Positions 16,140 to 23,121 of a DNA stretch of 64,000 bases are shown piece after piece. The translations under genes and the position numbers were made by a program. This DNA is from Burkholderiaceae bacterium (lineage in GTDB: Bacteria; Pseudomonadota; Gammaproteobacteria; Burkholderiales; Burkholderiaceae_F): positions 63,235 through 127,234 of the forward strand of contig JALHMQ010000010.1 in assembly GCA_022843955.1 (NCBI GenBank). The letters are read 5' to 3'. Each line of letters begins with the position of its first letter. Positions within the stretch are counted from its first letter, which is position 1. The notes under the pieces were generated by a model. The model searched no databases and was not told the DNA's origin. It worked only from the letters and a program-made list of their open reading frames with translations.

Positions 16140-17837
<1,698 letters not shown>

Positions 17838-17900
17838 GCAGCGGCACGCGGGTTGCCGGGCCCCCCGAGGTTGGTTGCACCGGTGAAAGTGGCGGTGTCG

Positions 17901-17915
17901 GACGTGCGCCACGTC
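17901..17915. repeat. Small inverted repeat after the ATPase gene
   Basis: GACGTG (17901-17906) and CACGTC (17910-17915) pair around a 3-nt loop in the 137-bp gap before the next gene. No T tract. It may end the transport transcript, or be an operator-like palindrome. Confidence 0.25.
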
Positions 17916-17974
17916 GGGCACTCTGGAGCAGTTGCACCAACGCCGGCTGGCGCGATATCCCTAGACTTCAAGCC

Positions 17975-18697
17975 ATGATCTTCGCAGCTTCCGAGAAGTC
18001 GATCCCTGCGCGCTTGAGTGCGGCGCTGACGCGCGTCATCACCCTGCGCGAGTCGTTCGACCGGCAGCCGGAACTGGCGTTGCCATGGAAGGAAGTCAAG
18101 CACTGGCAGTCGCGGCGGCTGCGGCGCACCTATCCGGACCTGTTTGCCGTGCCGCGCTACATGAACGCGGGCGAGTTTTTCCTGAATGAGATCTACGGTG
18201 CAAAGGACTTCGGCCAGCGCGACCGCGAGGCGCTGCGCGTCGTCCCCAAGCTGGCCCGCATGCTGCCCGAGCGGGCGGTGGAGACGCTGCTGCTGGCGGT
18301 CGAACTGGACGAGATGTCCGAAGAGCTCGACGCGCGGGTGGCAGCGCATATCGTGATGCCGGTGACCGACGCGAGCTATGCGGCAGCGTACGTGCTGGCC
18401 GGCACGCCCGGTGAGCGGCGCGCGCAGATCGAGCATGTGCACAAGATCGGTGGCGCGCTGGAGCGCCTGGCGCGGCTGCCGCTGCTCTCGGGCATGCTGC
18501 ACCTGATGCGCGGTCCGGCGGAGGCGGCGGGCCTGTCGCACCTGCACTTCTTCCTGCAGCGTGGCTTTGATGCTTTCAAGTCGATGGGTCCGGCGAGCGA
18601 GTTTCTGCGCACCATTTCCGAGAGGGAAACGCAGCTGATGGAGCGCTTGTTCGCCGCTGATCCGGCGCCGTTTCGCGACATCGCGCCAGCGCCCTAG
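17975..18697 (+). CDS. FFLEELY-motif protein, function unknown
   Basis: 240 aa, soluble, no signal peptide or membrane span. Residues near 64-82 (AGEFFLNEIYGAKDFGQRD) match the signature of a conserved proteobacterial family known only by its FFLEELY motif; here the motif reads FFLNEIY. The rest is mostly helical with many Glu, Arg and Leu. No catalytic motif is recognised. No clear ribosome site precedes the ATG. Its stop codon overlaps the stop of the convergent RDD gene (both within 18694-18697), so there is no room for a terminator between them. Confidence 0.75.
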   Translation: MIFAASEKSIPARLSAALTRVITLRESFDRQPELALPWKEVKHWQSRRLRRTYPDLFAVPRYMNAGEFFLNEIYGAKDFGQRDREALRVVPKLARMLPERAVETLLLAVELDEMSEELDARVAAHIVMPVTDASYAAAYVLAGTPGERRAQIEHVHKIGGALERLARLPLLSGMLHLMRGPAEAAGLSHLHFFLQRGFDAFKSMGPASEFLRTISERETQLMERLFAADPAPFRDIAPAP

Positions 18698-19215
18698 CGC
18701 GGCGCCACCGGTATCACCCGGGTGCCGATCAGCCGATCGTGCAGCAACTGGCCTTCTGGGTGGAGTTTCGCGGTAAGCAGCATGGCGCAGAAGCCGCCGA
18801 AGAACACCATCAAGTCGACCAGCGTGTGCGCCTGGAACACGGCGATCACGATGATGCTGGGCACGAACAGATGCCACGCCAACACATAGCGCAGGACGGC
18901 CCGCCCCAACGAAGGCGGCCGACCATTCGCGTCGACCACGCGCAGGCCCCATGATTTCATCGCCAGGGTCTGTCCTGACCGCGACCAGCACCAGGCAAAG
19001 TAGGCGCCGATGGTGACGAACAGCACGGCCTGCAGCGCCCAGCGCTGCGCATCGGGCAGCGGATACTTCCAGTTGGCCGCTGACAACAGCGCGTAGCTGA
19101 CGATGAAGACCACGCCGAACAGCAGCACGAGTTCATAGATCATGGCCGCGAAGCGCAGCCAGAGCGACGGCGGGCGAGGGGCGGCAAGCGTGCCTGTTGC
19201 GGGCGGAGCGACCAT
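18694..19215 (-). CDS. RDD family membrane protein
   Basis: 173 aa with about three membrane spans (near 20-42, 58-78 and 105-135). The RDD hallmarks are visible: Arg in PSLWLRFAAMIYELVL near the start, and GQTLAMKSWGLRVVDANG in the middle, then LHDRLIGTRV at the end. RDD proteins are inner-membrane proteins of unclear role, some linked to ion exchange. It lies 90 bp downstream of the DUF3106 gene on the same strand and may be the last gene of the sigma factor cassette. Confidence 0.85.
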   Translation of the reverse strand: MVAPPATGTLAAPRPPSLWLRFAAMIYELVLLFGVVFIVSYALLSAANWKYPLPDAQRWALQAVLFVTIGAYFAWCWSRSGQTLAMKSWGLRVVDANGRPPSLGRAVLRYVLAWHLFVPSIIVIAVFQAHTLVDLMVFFGGFCAMLLTAKLHPEGQLLHDRLIGTRVIPVAPR

Positions 19216-19305
19216 GGAGCGAGAGCTTACCGGTGACCGGTCCTGCCTCGGTGCCGCGCAGCGTTGCAGGTGGCGTTGCCGCCGGGATGCAGTGTGCCGC
19301 TCGGT

Positions 19306-19902
19306 CTACTTGACGGCGGGCGCTGCCTCGATCTTGCGCTCTGCGGTGGGTTTGGCAGTGCGTTCCGGCAGATCGCGCGTCGGCCGACGTGGTGGTTCCT
19401 TCTTTTGATCGGCCTTTTGCCTGAGGGCCGCCCGTTCTTCCGGCGGCAGCTCCTTGAACTCCTGCAGCACTGCCTGGCGCTGGTCGGCCGGCAGCTCGTA
19501 GGCCTTCTTGAAGTTCTCACGCAGCGTGTTCCGTTGCTGCGGCGTCAGCTTGGCGAACTCGGCCATTCGCGCATGCAGCCGACCCTTGCCGTCGGCAGAC
19601 AGATTGGGGTACTTGGCAGCAACTTCGATCCACTTTTGCTTGCGATCGGCATCGAAGGTGTCCCAGCGGCTTGCCAGGGGCGCCAGCGCCTCACGCTGAA
19701 CGGGATCAAGATCCTTCCAAAGCGGTCTGGCCAGGTCGGCTGAGGCGGATGCCACAGCCGCGGGGGGGCGTGAGCCTTGGGCAAGCGCCGCGACGGGCGT
19801 GACCGAGGCAACCGAGGCGAATAAGGTGATTAAGGCGATTGAGGCGGCCACCAAGCTCACTTGGCCACCGAGCCTGCTGGCCCCTGCACGCCCGCGCTTC
19901 AT
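19306..19902 (-). CDS. DUF3106 protein, exported, with an LTPQQ motif
   Basis: 198 aa. An N-terminal hydrophobic segment (about 14-42, ending near ALAQG) acts as a signal peptide or anchor. The mature part is helical and rich in Arg, Glu and Gln, with repeats of a short pattern: LDPVQREALAPL (65-76), LTPQQRNTLRENF (119-131) and LPPEERAALRQK (152-163). This resembles the LTxxQ helices of periplasmic Spy/CpxP-type stress proteins; the resemblance is by pattern only. Its ATG overlaps the DUF3619 stop as ATGA. The Pro/Arg/Lys-rich tail is probably disordered. Confidence 0.8.
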   Translation of the reverse strand: MKRGRAGASRLGGQVSLVAASIALITLFASVASVTPVAALAQGSRPPAAVASASADLARPLWKDLDPVQREALAPLASRWDTFDADRKQKWIEVAAKYPNLSADGKGRLHARMAEFAKLTPQQRNTLRENFKKAYELPADQRQAVLQEFKELPPEERAALRQKADQKKEPPRRPTRDLPERTAKPTAERKIEAAPAVK

Positions 19903-20447
19903 TCGGCCTGGGTTTCTTCGGTCGAGGCGTCGGGCTGCGCCGTGGCGCCGGCGGCGTCGACGTCGGGCACCTCGACCACGAACTCATCGCCCGTCGAGAC
20001 CTCGAGCGGCGCCGTGTCTGCTGCCATGAATGGCTGATTCAACAAGGCGCCGAAGCCTTTGTCGGCATAGGCTGAGATGGGTGAATCATCGAGCAGGACG
20101 GCGAAATCCAGGTCGGCCAACTCTTCGATCAGCTTGCGGTTGTGCCATTCATAGATCGCGACGAAACCCACCACCAGCGCGACCAGCGGAGCCAGCAGGC
20201 CGGCGCCGCGCAACCACGACCACAATCCGCTCGGGTCACCGCTGCCGGCTGAAGAGGGGCCGCCGGCCGTGGCCAGTTGCAGGGCCGGCAACCGTACCGT
20301 GGCGGGCCGGGCAAAAGACGCGGCACCAGCCTGGCTGACGGCAAGCTGGCGCGCCTTTTCCAGTCGCAGGACCGTCTTGTAGTTGACGCTCTCGGCCCCT
20401 TCGTTGAGGGCTTGGCGGATGCGGAACGCGAACTCGATCTCTTTCAT
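19899..20447 (-). CDS. DUF3619 single-span membrane protein (candidate anti-sigma factor)
   Basis: 182 aa. The N-terminal 40 residues are helical (FRIRQALNEG, YKTVLRLEKARQLAV), a low-complexity linker follows, then one membrane span at about 81-99 and an acidic C-terminal part of about 80 residues. The start at MKEIEF overlaps the sigma factor stop as ATGA. A single-span protein coupled to an ECF sigma gene is the classic place for an anti-sigma factor, and the N-terminal helix could bind sigma. The family is annotated only as DUF3619, so this role is inference. Confidence 0.75.
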   Translation of the reverse strand: MKEIEFAFRIRQALNEGAESVNYKTVLRLEKARQLAVSQAGAASFARPATVRLPALQLATAGGPSSAGSGDPSGLWSWLRGAGLLAPLVALVVGFVAIYEWHNRKLIEELADLDFAVLLDDSPISAYADKGFGALLNQPFMAADTAPLEVSTGDEFVVEVPDVDAAGATAQPDASTEETQAE

Positions 20448-21007
20448 GGCTTCAATCCCCGTGAGCGCAAGGCTCGTGCCAGGGCATGGGTGGCGCGCGA
20501 ACAATGGGTCTTGACACTGCCTTCTGAGCAGCCCATCAGCGCCGCCGTCTCCGCAACATCAAAATCCTCCCAGTAACGCAGCAGGAAGGCTTCACGTTGA
20601 CGGGCAGGAAGGCGGCTGATCTCCTCTTCGATGATGGCGACTACCTGTTCGCGCTCGACCTTGTCCGCCGCGCTTTCGGCCTGTTCGCTGCCGGCCAGGG
20701 CCTCCAAGGTCTCCAGTGGATCAAGATCCTCCTCGTTAGCGGGCGTCAGGGCGGAAAACAGGGTCACCCAGGTCGAGCGCACCTTCTGGCGGCGAAAGTG
20801 ATCGTGGGTGGCGTTCTGAAGAATGCGGGTGAACAACAGCGGCAGTTCCGGGGCGGGCCGGTCCGCATAGTTGACCGCGAGCTTGATCATCGCCTCCTGG
20901 ACGATGTCGAGCGCAGCGTCCTCGTCGCGCACGGCAAACTGAGCCTGCTTGAACGCGCGGCGCTCGACGCCCGCCAGGAATTCTGAGAGCTCTTCGGGAG
21001 TAGCCAT
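20444..21007 (-). CDS. ECF-type RNA polymerase sigma factor
   Basis: 187 aa. Region 2 is visible as DAALDIVQEAMIKLAVNY followed by LLFTRILQNATHDHFRRQK, and region 4 as ISRLPARQREAFLLRYWED and DVAETAALMGCSEGSVKTH (helix-turn-helix near the end). The start is placed at MATPEELSEFL; 15 further codons are open upstream but lack a ribosome site. The order sigma, DUF3619, DUF3106 with ATGA joints is recalled as conserved beside ilvB in many betaproteobacteria. The set of genes it controls is not visible here; no -35 GGAAC type motif was confirmed at its own promoter. Confidence 0.9.
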   Translation of the reverse strand: MATPEELSEFLAGVERRAFKQAQFAVRDEDAALDIVQEAMIKLAVNYADRPAPELPLLFTRILQNATHDHFRRQKVRSTWVTLFSALTPANEEDLDPLETLEALAGSEQAESAADKVEREQVVAIIEEEISRLPARQREAFLLRYWEDFDVAETAALMGCSEGSVKTHCSRATHALARALRSRGLKP

Positions 21008-21129
21008 TGCGGCGGGCTGGGGCGCGCGTGTGCGCGACCGGCAACCGCTCAAAAGTGCGGCGGGATGCTATCAGAGGGGCGTGTCGTGTCGGTGCGACGC
21101 TGCACCGAGGGCGCCTTAATGCGCAAAGC

Positions 21130-21170
21130 GGGTGCGCAATTTGCACCGGCTGGTGCGCTGCAGTATCGTC
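21130..21170 (+). promoter_or_regulatory. Candidate control region of ilvB
   Basis: GGTGCGCAATTTGCACC (about 21130-21146) is a near palindrome, with a second GGTGCG a few bases on. TTGCAC inside it is 17 bp from TATCGT, a weak sigma-70 pair. The 353-bp gap 21008-21360 holds no convincing gene; the one open frame there runs on into ilvB and lacks coding character. An LRP- or LysR-type operator is possible but unproven. Confidence 0.25.
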
Positions 21171-21360
21171 GCGGGTTCTTGCACCACAAGAGAACTACTG
21201 AAGCGGAGCAGCAATACGTTGTATCTGGTTTAGTCGTCAGCGACATGACGTCAACTACGGCGTCCACTACGCGCGCGCACTTGCCGCACCAGCCGCCACA
21301 AGCGGCCAGTGGAACGGCATCCAATCAATCTCCAGCAGGACTTGAGAGGAGTAGCACCTT

Positions 21361-23121
21361 ATGCAGTCCGTCAGCGCGGAAACAGCCAATCGCGCGGCAT
21401 CCGCAGCCGCCACCATCACCGGCGCCGAGATCGTCGTCCGGTGTCTGAAGGAAGAGGGCGTCGAGCACGTGTTCGGGTATCCCGGCGGTGCCGTCCTCTA
21501 CATCTACGACGAAATCTTCAAGCAGGACAGCTTCCAGCACATTCTCGTGCGGCATGAGCAGGCCGCCGTGCACGCAGCAGACGCCTATTCGCGCTCGAGC
21601 AAGAAGATCGGCGTCGCGCTCGTCACCAGTGGTCCTGGCGTGACCAATGCCGTCACCGGCATCGCCACCGCCTACATGGATTCGATCCCGATGGTGATCA
21701 TCACCGGGCAGGTGCCGACGCATGCGATCGGCCAGGATGCGTTCCAGGAGTGCGACACGGTCGGCATCACGCGTCCCTGCGTGAAGCACAACATCCTGGT
21801 GAAAGACGTACGCGACCTGGCGTCTGCGATTCGCAAGGCATTTTTCATCGCCAAGACCGGGCGACCCGGTCCGGTGCTGGTCGACATCCCGAAGGACGTG
21901 ACCATCGCCCGGACCAACTTCGAGTACCCGCGCGACACCTCGATGCGCTCGTACAACCCGGTGGTCAAGGGCCATCAGGGTCAGATCAAGAAAGCGGTAC
22001 AGCTACTTCTCTCTGCCGAGCGGCCGATGATTTACACCGGCGGCGGCGTGATCCTGTCCGACTCTGCCGACCTCGTGAACCGGCTCGTCAAGCTGCTCGG
22101 CTACCCGTGCACCAACACGCTGATGGGGTTGGGTGGCGTGCGCGCGAGCGACAGCCGATATGTGGGCATGCTCGGCATGCACGGCACGTACGAGGCCAAC
22201 ATGGCGATGCAGAACTGCGACGTGCTGCTCGCGGTCGGCGCGCGCTTCGACGACCGCGTGATCGGCAACCCGAAGCACTTCGCCTCCAGTCCGCGCAAGA
22301 TCGTCCACATCGATGTCGACCCGTCGTCGATCTCCAAGCGGGTGAAGGTCGATGTGCCGATCGTGGGCGACGTGCGCGAGGTGCTCACCGAACTGCTGTC
22401 CCAGATCGAGGCGTCTGGATCACAGCCCGATGTCGCCGCGCTCAAGGCGTGGTGGACGCAGATCAACGAGTGGCGCAAGCGCGACTGCCTGAAGTACGAC
22501 CGCGCGGCCGACATCATCAAGCCGCAGTACGTGGTCGAGAAGTTGTGGGAGATCACCGGCGGCGACGCTTTCATTACCTCCGATGTCGGCCAGCATCAAA
22601 TGTGGGCGGCGCAGTACTACCGCTTCGAGGAGCCGCGCCGCTGGATCAACAGTGGCGGCCTGGGCACGATGGGCGTGGGCTTGCCCTATGCGATGGGTGT
22701 GCAGATGGCCAATCCCGGTGCGCAGGTGGCATGCATCACCGGTGAGGCGTCGATCCAGATGTGCATCCAGGAACTGTCGACCTGCAAGCAGTACCGGCTG
22801 ACGCCGAAGATCGTCAACCTCAACAACCGTTACCTGGGCATGGTGCGCCAGTGGCAGCAGATCGACTACGGCTCGCGCTACTCGGAATCGTACATGGACG
22901 CGCTGCCCGACTTCGTCAAGCTCGCCGAAAGTTACGGCCATATCGGCCTGCAGATCGACAAGAAGGCCGATGTCGAGCTGGCGTTGAAGGAAGCCTTCGG
23001 CAAGCACAAGGACCGCCTCGTGTTCCTCGATTTCATCACCGACCAGACCGAGAACGTGTGGCCGATGGTGAAGGCCGGCAAGGGCTTGAGCGAAATGCTG
23101 CTCGGCTCGGAGGACCTGTGA
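21361..23121 (+). CDS. ilvB: Acetolactate synthase, large (catalytic) subunit
   Basis: 586 aa, thiamine-diphosphate enzyme joining two pyruvates, or pyruvate and 2-oxobutyrate, in valine, leucine and isoleucine synthesis. The catalytic Glu66 lies in RHEQAAVHAADAYSR. The cofactor motif reads GEASIQM (from residue 461) followed by LNNRYLGMVRQWQ, so the usual GDG is GEA; a Glu here is recalled in related bacteria. A good ribosome site (GAGAGGAG) precedes the ATG. The stop overlaps the ilvH start by one base. Length is normal. Confidence 0.96.
   Translation: MQSVSAETANRAASAAATITGAEIVVRCLKEEGVEHVFGYPGGAVLYIYDEIFKQDSFQHILVRHEQAAVHAADAYSRSSKKIGVALVTSGPGVTNAVTGIATAYMDSIPMVIITGQVPTHAIGQDAFQECDTVGITRPCVKHNILVKDVRDLASAIRKAFFIAKTGRPGPVLVDIPKDVTIARTNFEYPRDTSMRSYNPVVKGHQGQIKKAVQLLLSAERPMIYTGGGVILSDSADLVNRLVKLLGYPCTNTLMGLGGVRASDSRYVGMLGMHGTYEANMAMQNCDVLLAVGARFDDRVIGNPKHFASSPRKIVHIDVDPSSISKRVKVDVPIVGDVREVLTELLSQIEASGSQPDVAALKAWWTQINEWRKRDCLKYDRAADIIKPQYVVEKLWEITGGDAFITSDVGQHQMWAAQYYRFEEPRRWINSGGLGTMGVGLPYAMGVQMANPGAQVACITGEASIQMCIQELSTCKQYRLTPKIVNLNNRYLGMVRQWQQIDYGSRYSESYMDALPDFVKLAESYGHIGLQIDKKADVELALKEAFGKHKDRLVFLDFITDQTENVWPMVKAGKGLSEMLLGSEDL

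Follow-up and report, generated by a model that had tools for sequence, protein, structure and literature searches.

The SigAb–AabA–AabB system of Acinetobacter baumannii was published in 2025 (mBio) as Acinetobacter-specific (PMC12153292). SigAb becomes less active on overexpression of AabA, AabB or both and more active with copper; in Escherichia coli the cytoplasmic portion of AabA by itself inhibits it potently, and the SigAb promoter is given as GTCAAC followed after 16–18 bases by CGTT (PMC12153292). The RpoE–RseA–RseB system likewise combines a sigma factor, a membrane anti-sigma factor and a periplasmic partner in one operon, although AabA, at 107 residues, is much smaller than RseA, at 217 (PMC12153292). 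In the cobalt/nickel system CnrH–CnrY–CnrX of Cupriavidus metallidurans a small anti-sigma factor is joined by a periplasmic sensor, and two helices of CnrY embrace its sigma factor (review PMC4598750). The present work concerns a block of genes for an extracytoplasmic function (ECF) sigma factor, a DUF3619 protein, a DUF3106 protein and an RDD-family membrane protein, located in a 64,000-nucleotide (nt) stretch of a Burkholderiaceae genome (contig JALHMQ010000010.1, positions 63,235–127,234; hereafter the window, to whose numbering all coordinates refer). With a probability of about 0.8, the block is the Burkholderiales form of the SigAb–AabA–AabB module and constitutes a transmembrane sigma/anti-sigma switch. 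A first-pass annotation had proposed an undescribed envelope-stress or metal-stress switch of betaproteobacteria; neither 'undescribed' nor the restriction to betaproteobacteria can be kept, since a relative is already in print (PMC12153292) and the block extends to A. baumannii and to further families within the class.

The four genes lie on the minus strand where the first-pass annotation had placed them, and coordinates and Pfam matches agree. The sigma factor (20444..21007, 187 residues) scored 268.5 bits in the NCBIfam equivalog NF006550 (PRK09047; cut-off 173) and matched Sigma70_r4_2 in Pfam (1e-16), with region 2 at 22.3 bits, just below the 24-bit cut-off. It is followed by DUF3619 (19899..20447, 182 residues, a predicted anti-sigma factor, Pfam 4e-29) and DUF3106 (19306..19902, 198 residues, a predicted exported helical protein related to A. 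baumannii AabB, Pfam 1.5e-28, 99.8 bits against a cut-off of 24.3). ATGA overlaps join the sigma stop to the DUF3619 start (20444..20447) and the DUF3619 stop to the DUF3106 start (19899..19902), as had been described; the RDD gene (18694..19215, Pfam 1.7e-21), which is the fourth gene of the Burkholderiales form, begins 90 nt after DUF3106 without overlap.

When a non-Burkholderiales sigma factor (G052) was used as tblastn query, A. baumannii records stood far above the rest among the 40 of 131 records listed (E 9e-31 versus 1e-13). At one of these A. baumannii loci (L355) the sigma gene overlaps the gene for a 106-residue protein, which itself overlaps a gene annotated as DUF3106, and GTCAAC-N17-CGTT is present upstream of the sigma gene. 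Order, sizes and promoter fit sigAb–aabA–aabB as published, the match being one of features and not of accession. SigAb scored 236.7 bits in NF006550 (same cut-off of 173) and was 36 % identical to the window sigma factor over 173 residues (E 1.5e-32, three-sequence comparison), and AabB passed the DUF3106 threshold (38.1 bits, cut-off 24.3). The two systems have in common a sigma factor in NF006550, a small single-span middle protein, a DUF3106 protein encoded third, overlapping genes and an equal gene order. They differ in that the window has an RDD gene, an adjoining ilvB gene and a housekeeping-like -10 element but no SigAb promoter, and in that DUF3619 and AabA are weakly alike in sequence. 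The L355 record, CP040041.1, is listed as a plasmid, but with tolB and pal on it besides the sigma operon it is probably part of a chromosome; three more tblastn matches (H2–H4) come from records of chromosome size that stand in the plasmid collection.

The co-occurrence of the genes was examined in 288 loci selected by a match to DUF3619-like or DUF3106 proteins, the sigma factor being no criterion. Genomes were sorted by kinship label into Burkholderiales (the window's order) and non-Burkholderiales (same class or phylum, outside the order); the latter set presumably consists mostly of gammaproteobacteria in the older sense. The sigma gene and a DUF3619-like gene occurred together in 281 of the 288 loci, 247 of which were unique, the pair being missing from seven (L020, L135, L139, L140, L141, L142 and L266). 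DUF3106 came next in 245 of the 247 unique loci, and the coordinates of the remaining two (L069 and L207) place them at the ends of contigs. The association put forward in the first-pass annotation was thereby borne out for the first three genes, whilst RDD accompanies them in Burkholderiales only (152 of the 164 loci whose downstream DNA extends to 700 nt or more, versus 0/42 elsewhere). An opposite-strand ilvB gene showed the same division, being present in 160 of the 181 Burkholderiales loci with 700 nt or more upstream and in 0/51 others. In a set of 36 loci, mostly from Cupriavidus and Ralstonia, the order ilvB-sigma-DUF3619-DUF3106 was found in all 36 and RDD in 35.

Pfam DUF3619 (PF12279) matched in 285 of 399 genomes of the order (E 0.001), and in a sample of the class in 23 of 274 (E 0.001), where matches were mostly weak and often confined to the N-terminal part. 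A profile built from 24 of these weaker relatives (A3) reached 69 of the 274 genomes; 21 of its 24 members individually matched Pfam DUF3619 at E 0.01, and the relatives in it mostly possess an LDFYxWL-like C-terminal tail. In one locus (L013, genome G185) an in-frame TAG occurs within the tail motif of the DUF3619-like gene; the gene may be broken there, or the sequence may be in error. The ATGA overlap of sigma and DUF3619 exceeds chance, since 94 of 119 loci showed it with a length of exactly 4 nt (starts near the domain start, ATG preferred); the figure of 216/247 in a later set is biased because the -4 start was preferred whenever present. The overlap of DUF3619 and DUF3106 is far less conserved (-4 in 16/119), even though, of the possible DUF3106 starts, the one closest to the end of DUF3619 was chosen.

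DUF3619 is a well-supported candidate for the anti-sigma factor. The AlphaFold2 model, of low confidence (mean predicted local distance difference test score 64.7), comprises two N-terminal helices (residues 2–19 and 23–45), a linker and a long helix (75–118) across the membrane span, which lies approximately at residues 81–100 (20148..20207, minus strand; boundaries judged by eye from the sequence). Exactly one span was found by hydropathy in 225 of 247 DUF3619-like proteins, with a mean net charge in these of +2.4 on the N-terminal side and -6.9 in the tail; the N-terminal helices are predicted to be cytoplasmic and the acidic tail periplasmic. Homology to the A. baumannii system leads us to expect that residues 1–70 hold the sigma factor and that DUF3106 acts on the tail. 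The earlier suggestion that a single-span protein coupled to a sigma gene would be an anti-sigma factor is sustained through homology of the block to the A. baumannii operon, in which AabA and AabB were tested, whilst its novelty is not. The paired helices would resemble the clamp formed by CnrY, which is the best structural analogy for DUF3619 and not a demonstrated relative; no CnrY sequence match was obtained. The HxxxCxxC motif of class I zinc anti-sigma factors (PMC7406223) was not encountered, and the window DUF3619 protein has no cysteine at all. In Herbaspirillum, the essential gene Hsero_3074, whose product has predicted membrane helices and which stands beside a sigma gene (PMC5086560), may or may not be a DUF3619 member.

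The assignment of DUF3106 as the periplasmic partner is supported by homology. Among its 245 relatives, 203 have a hydrophobic segment near the N-terminus. In the AlphaFold2 model, block means were 86–97 at residues 61–160 and 74 at 161–170, with a confident helical core at residues 60–167 (19402..19725, minus strand) made of short helices over 67–167. The window sequence contains one LTPQQR and the looser repeats LPADQR and LPPEER, so that 'repeated LTPQQR-like helices' was a fair description. The further likening to the stress proteins Spy and CpxP went beyond what was found. Together with the all-helical model and an E. coli match to the DUF3106 family that fell short of the cut-off, the motif invites the explanation that DUF3106 is a Spy/CpxP-like chaperone which a build-up of clients pulls off DUF3619 as the signal. 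At the sequence level such a relationship was tried and rejected: the DUF3106 profile gave 6–8 bits (E about 1) with Spy, CpxP and ZraP, the hhalign probability was 4.6 % over 16 columns covering an LTxxQ-like stretch, and the window protein matched no Spy/CpxP Pfam family up to E 1. Fold comparison gave weak rows (Foldseek best E 3.2, VIA-align best Z 3.1) with no Spy, CpxP or CnrX among them, which excludes nothing and is compatible with a distant likeness of fold. Overall, the chaperone explanation is considered unlikely. No RseB-family Pfam match was obtained for DUF3106 either; this, the 182 residues of the window DUF3619 protein and the GTCAAC/CGTT promoter of the non-Burkholderiales loci set the module apart from RpoE–RseA–RseB. 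A literature search on DUF3619 and DUF3106 found no paper.

Direct metal sensing offers another explanation, in which DUF3106, like CnrX, would bind a metal ion and signal to DUF3619 so that the sigma factor is released. The functional parts come in the same order (a sigma factor, a small single-span protein and a periplasmic helical protein), SigAb responds to copper, and the modelled AabA–SigAb complex has been likened by its authors to CnrY–CnrH (PMC12153292). However, no conserved His or Cys was present in the DUF3106 alignment (maximum 10.6 % His and 0 % Cys in a column; one column with 54.5 % Met), which makes a CnrX-like metal site unlikely, and neither the DUF3106 nor the DUF3619 profile had a sequence link to the solved CnrX or CnrY chains. 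We regard this explanation as very unlikely. The metal-stress part of the earlier proposal survives only in so far as the copper response of SigAb makes it possible; given the absence of conserved His and Cys columns from DUF3106, any metal sensing by the module is probably indirect.

The region within 900 nt upstream of the sigma gene was searched for GTCAAC-N16/17-CGTT, with expectations taken from a dinucleotide model. Of the 61 non-Burkholderiales loci, which include close relatives and are not independent events, 52 carry the motif (0.0–0.1 expected), 35 of them within 300 nt. On the opposite strand it was seen in three of the 61, and a few of the nine loci without it had less than 900 nt upstream. 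It lay more than 300 nt upstream in 17 non-Burkholderiales loci, many of which have a small gene with a signal-like start in between, often coding for an RGDRI-repeat protein. Such small exported RGDRI-repeat proteins between promoter and sigma gene (e.g. in L004, L010, L014 and L022) are sometimes encoded by the first gene of the sigma operon. Among 184 Burkholderiales loci, three (L028, L244 and L257) possess the motif, 68–74 nt before the start codon (0.0–0.4 expected). A different element, TGNTANNAT, was found within 250 nt upstream of the sigma gene in 121 of 185 Burkholderiales loci, compared with 4.1 expected; in the window, TGATAGCAT (21065..21073, minus strand), an extended -10 promoter-like element, stands 58–66 nt before the sigma ATG. 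The Burkholderiales sigma gene is probably driven mainly by this conserved housekeeping-like promoter instead of by its own product. The sequence GGTCAAG upstream of Burkholderiales sigma genes was considered as a box recognized by the sigma factor and discarded, the other strand (CTTGACC) being a likely -35 of ilvB.

With the autoregulatory promoter lost, a housekeeping-like -10 conserved and ilvB and RDD fixed as neighbours, the Burkholderiales sigma factor might be a constitutive modulator whose level is set by DUF3619, with RDD and the ilv operon as the main metabolic link. Yet the SigAb-type promoter persists close to the start codon in the three loci named, and periplasmic DUF3106, for which a cytoplasmic rheostat would have no need, is kept almost everywhere; this explanation is accordingly thought improbable.

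The preferred reading, a Burkholderiales form of SigAb–AabA–AabB, has several observations weighing against it. In the window and in 180 other Burkholderiales of the 184, the 900 nt before the sigma gene contain no SigAb promoter, which is the reason for classing the block as a variant and not as a strict SigAb system. AabA fell below the Pfam DUF3619 cut-off, scored a weak 11.3 bits with profile A3, and in comparison with the DUF3619-like proteins gave E 3e-7 at best (L137) and 4e-4 with L273, these being two of 247 at E 1e-3. At the hydropathy threshold 21 of the 247 DUF3619-like proteins had no span and one had two, and 42 of the 245 DUF3106 proteins had no N-terminal hydrophobic segment. 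Motif searches brought forward no Burkholderiales regulon. Finally, direct coupling analysis of the sigma–DUF3619 pair (245 rows, effective number 164, five within-clade permutations as control) indicated no binding site. Its top pair, between sigma region 4 and DUF3619 helix 1, reached 1.72 and was equalled by the permutation maxima (1.73–1.84); the top-20 means exceeded all five permutations in the N-terminal part (1.03 versus 0.84–0.89), in the linker and span (1.03 versus 0.76–0.82) and in the tail (1.00 versus 0.81–0.88). Being about equal in all three parts, and not specific to the N-terminus, the excess resembles shared descent.

In a mechanism consistent with this reading, the two N-terminal helices of DUF3619 would hold the ECF sigma factor at the inner membrane of unstressed cells, as AabA or CnrY do. 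Exported DUF3106 would bind DUF3619 in the periplasm, at the short acidic tail, and keep the complex inhibiting, a role suggested by AabB. A signal from the envelope, perhaps stress by copper or thiols, would then loosen the complex and allow the sigma factor to reach RNA polymerase. In Burkholderiales an RDD membrane protein would have been added to the module.

Candidate targets outside Burkholderiales were sought in 32 genomes chosen because their sigma gene has the SigAb promoter. The pattern GTCAACC-N14/15-GCGTT had 87 sites in these genomes versus 30 for the reversed pattern, 24 of the 87 being sigma promoters; a looser pattern was above its control in some genomes and below it in others. 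The counts that follow are not frequencies, as they come from twenty hand-picked stretches: six have a second site close to the sigma operon, and 14 were taken because they resemble the consensus. In ten (L335–L339, L341, L342, L343, L346 and L347) the site precedes a gene for a lipoprotein-like protein of 514–644 residues with a DUF4382-like start; in L335–L339 the site is 895–1040 nt beyond the DUF3106 frame. RGDRI-repeat proteins follow the site in three stretches (L344, L345 and L352) and an EF-hand protein in one, and the remaining six have small or doubtful open reading frames. L340 has a pair of divergent SigAb-type promoters, at 2356 on the plus strand and at 2988 in reverse-strand numbering; the sigma operon lies behind one of them and an EF-hand gene behind the other. 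Among five target examples run against Pfam, DUF4382 was identified in two of two and EF-hands in one; the RGDRI protein and the L349 protein had no match above cut-off. DUF4382-like lipoproteins are a probable conserved target of the sigma factor outside Burkholderiales.

In 41 Burkholderiales genomes the longer motif had 84 sites elsewhere in the genome versus 44 for the reversed pattern. Three sequences recurred in related genomes, but they lie inside long frames resembling coding genes (20 of the 84 sites were read) and for that reason give no sign of a shared target. The loose pattern was below its control in nine of ten Burkholderiales genomes, with some matches inside the sigma gene itself, and also in the window's own genome (16 versus 29), where no listed match belonged to a DUF4382 gene (C47). 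Two isolated longer-motif sites were observed, one in L376 (485, counted on the reverse strand), 79 nt before the gene for a small exported protein of 97 residues, and the only one in the window's own genome (G000:C6:48262-48287), before a gene for a small exported protein resembling cytochrome c, where the control also gave one; they indicate no more than chance.

Cupriavidus species carry the block, and RpoR (Rmet_0910) of C. metallidurans may be an orthologue of the window sigma factor. Judging from its gene number and from what we take to be the chromosome size and gene count, Rmet_0910 presumably lies near 1 Mb. The C. pinatubonensis copy is at 1.03 of the 3.89 Mb of its record, a comparison in which the start points of the C. 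pinatubonensis and CH34 records may differ. Expression of RpoR is reported as 378 NPKM sense and 664 antisense, changing 0.64-fold under metal shock (PMC11647585), and the copper and thiol phenotype on record is that of an rpoQ rpoR double mutant (PMC11022561). The SbrI/SbrR pair of Pseudomonas aeruginosa was considered for comparison by its description only (review PMC10418997).

On the plus strand upstream of the sigma gene is a divergent acetolactate synthase gene of the ilvB type (21361..23121, open reading frame, name read from the sequence), a conserved neighbour that probably lies outside the switch. At the other end, a convergent gene of the FFLEELY family (17975–18697, plus strand, NCBIfam) overlaps the RDD stop by four bases; a search of the first 112 loci for this gene gave one match, the window's own locus (L001). 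An Rfam scan of 17000–23000 gave no family at threshold.

In a wider view, which is held with less assurance than the assignment of the block but is still judged rather likely, SigAb would be one branch of an old system for envelope stress, spread widely through gamma- and betaproteobacteria, with DUF3106 proteins as its general periplasmic co-inhibitors. Outside Burkholderiales the system would activate itself and exported proteins (DUF4382 lipoproteins, RGDRI-repeat and EF-hand proteins) from one type of promoter, and in Burkholderiales it would have been rewired to constitutive expression beside ilv, with RDD. The Burkholderiales form raises the question of which targets the sigma factor serves after the loss of its own promoter, whilst outside Burkholderiales the common promoter allows the regulon to be read from sequence. 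DUF3619 and DUF3106, both families of unknown function, would gain a testable role, and a system held to be special to one genus would become a model for many species.

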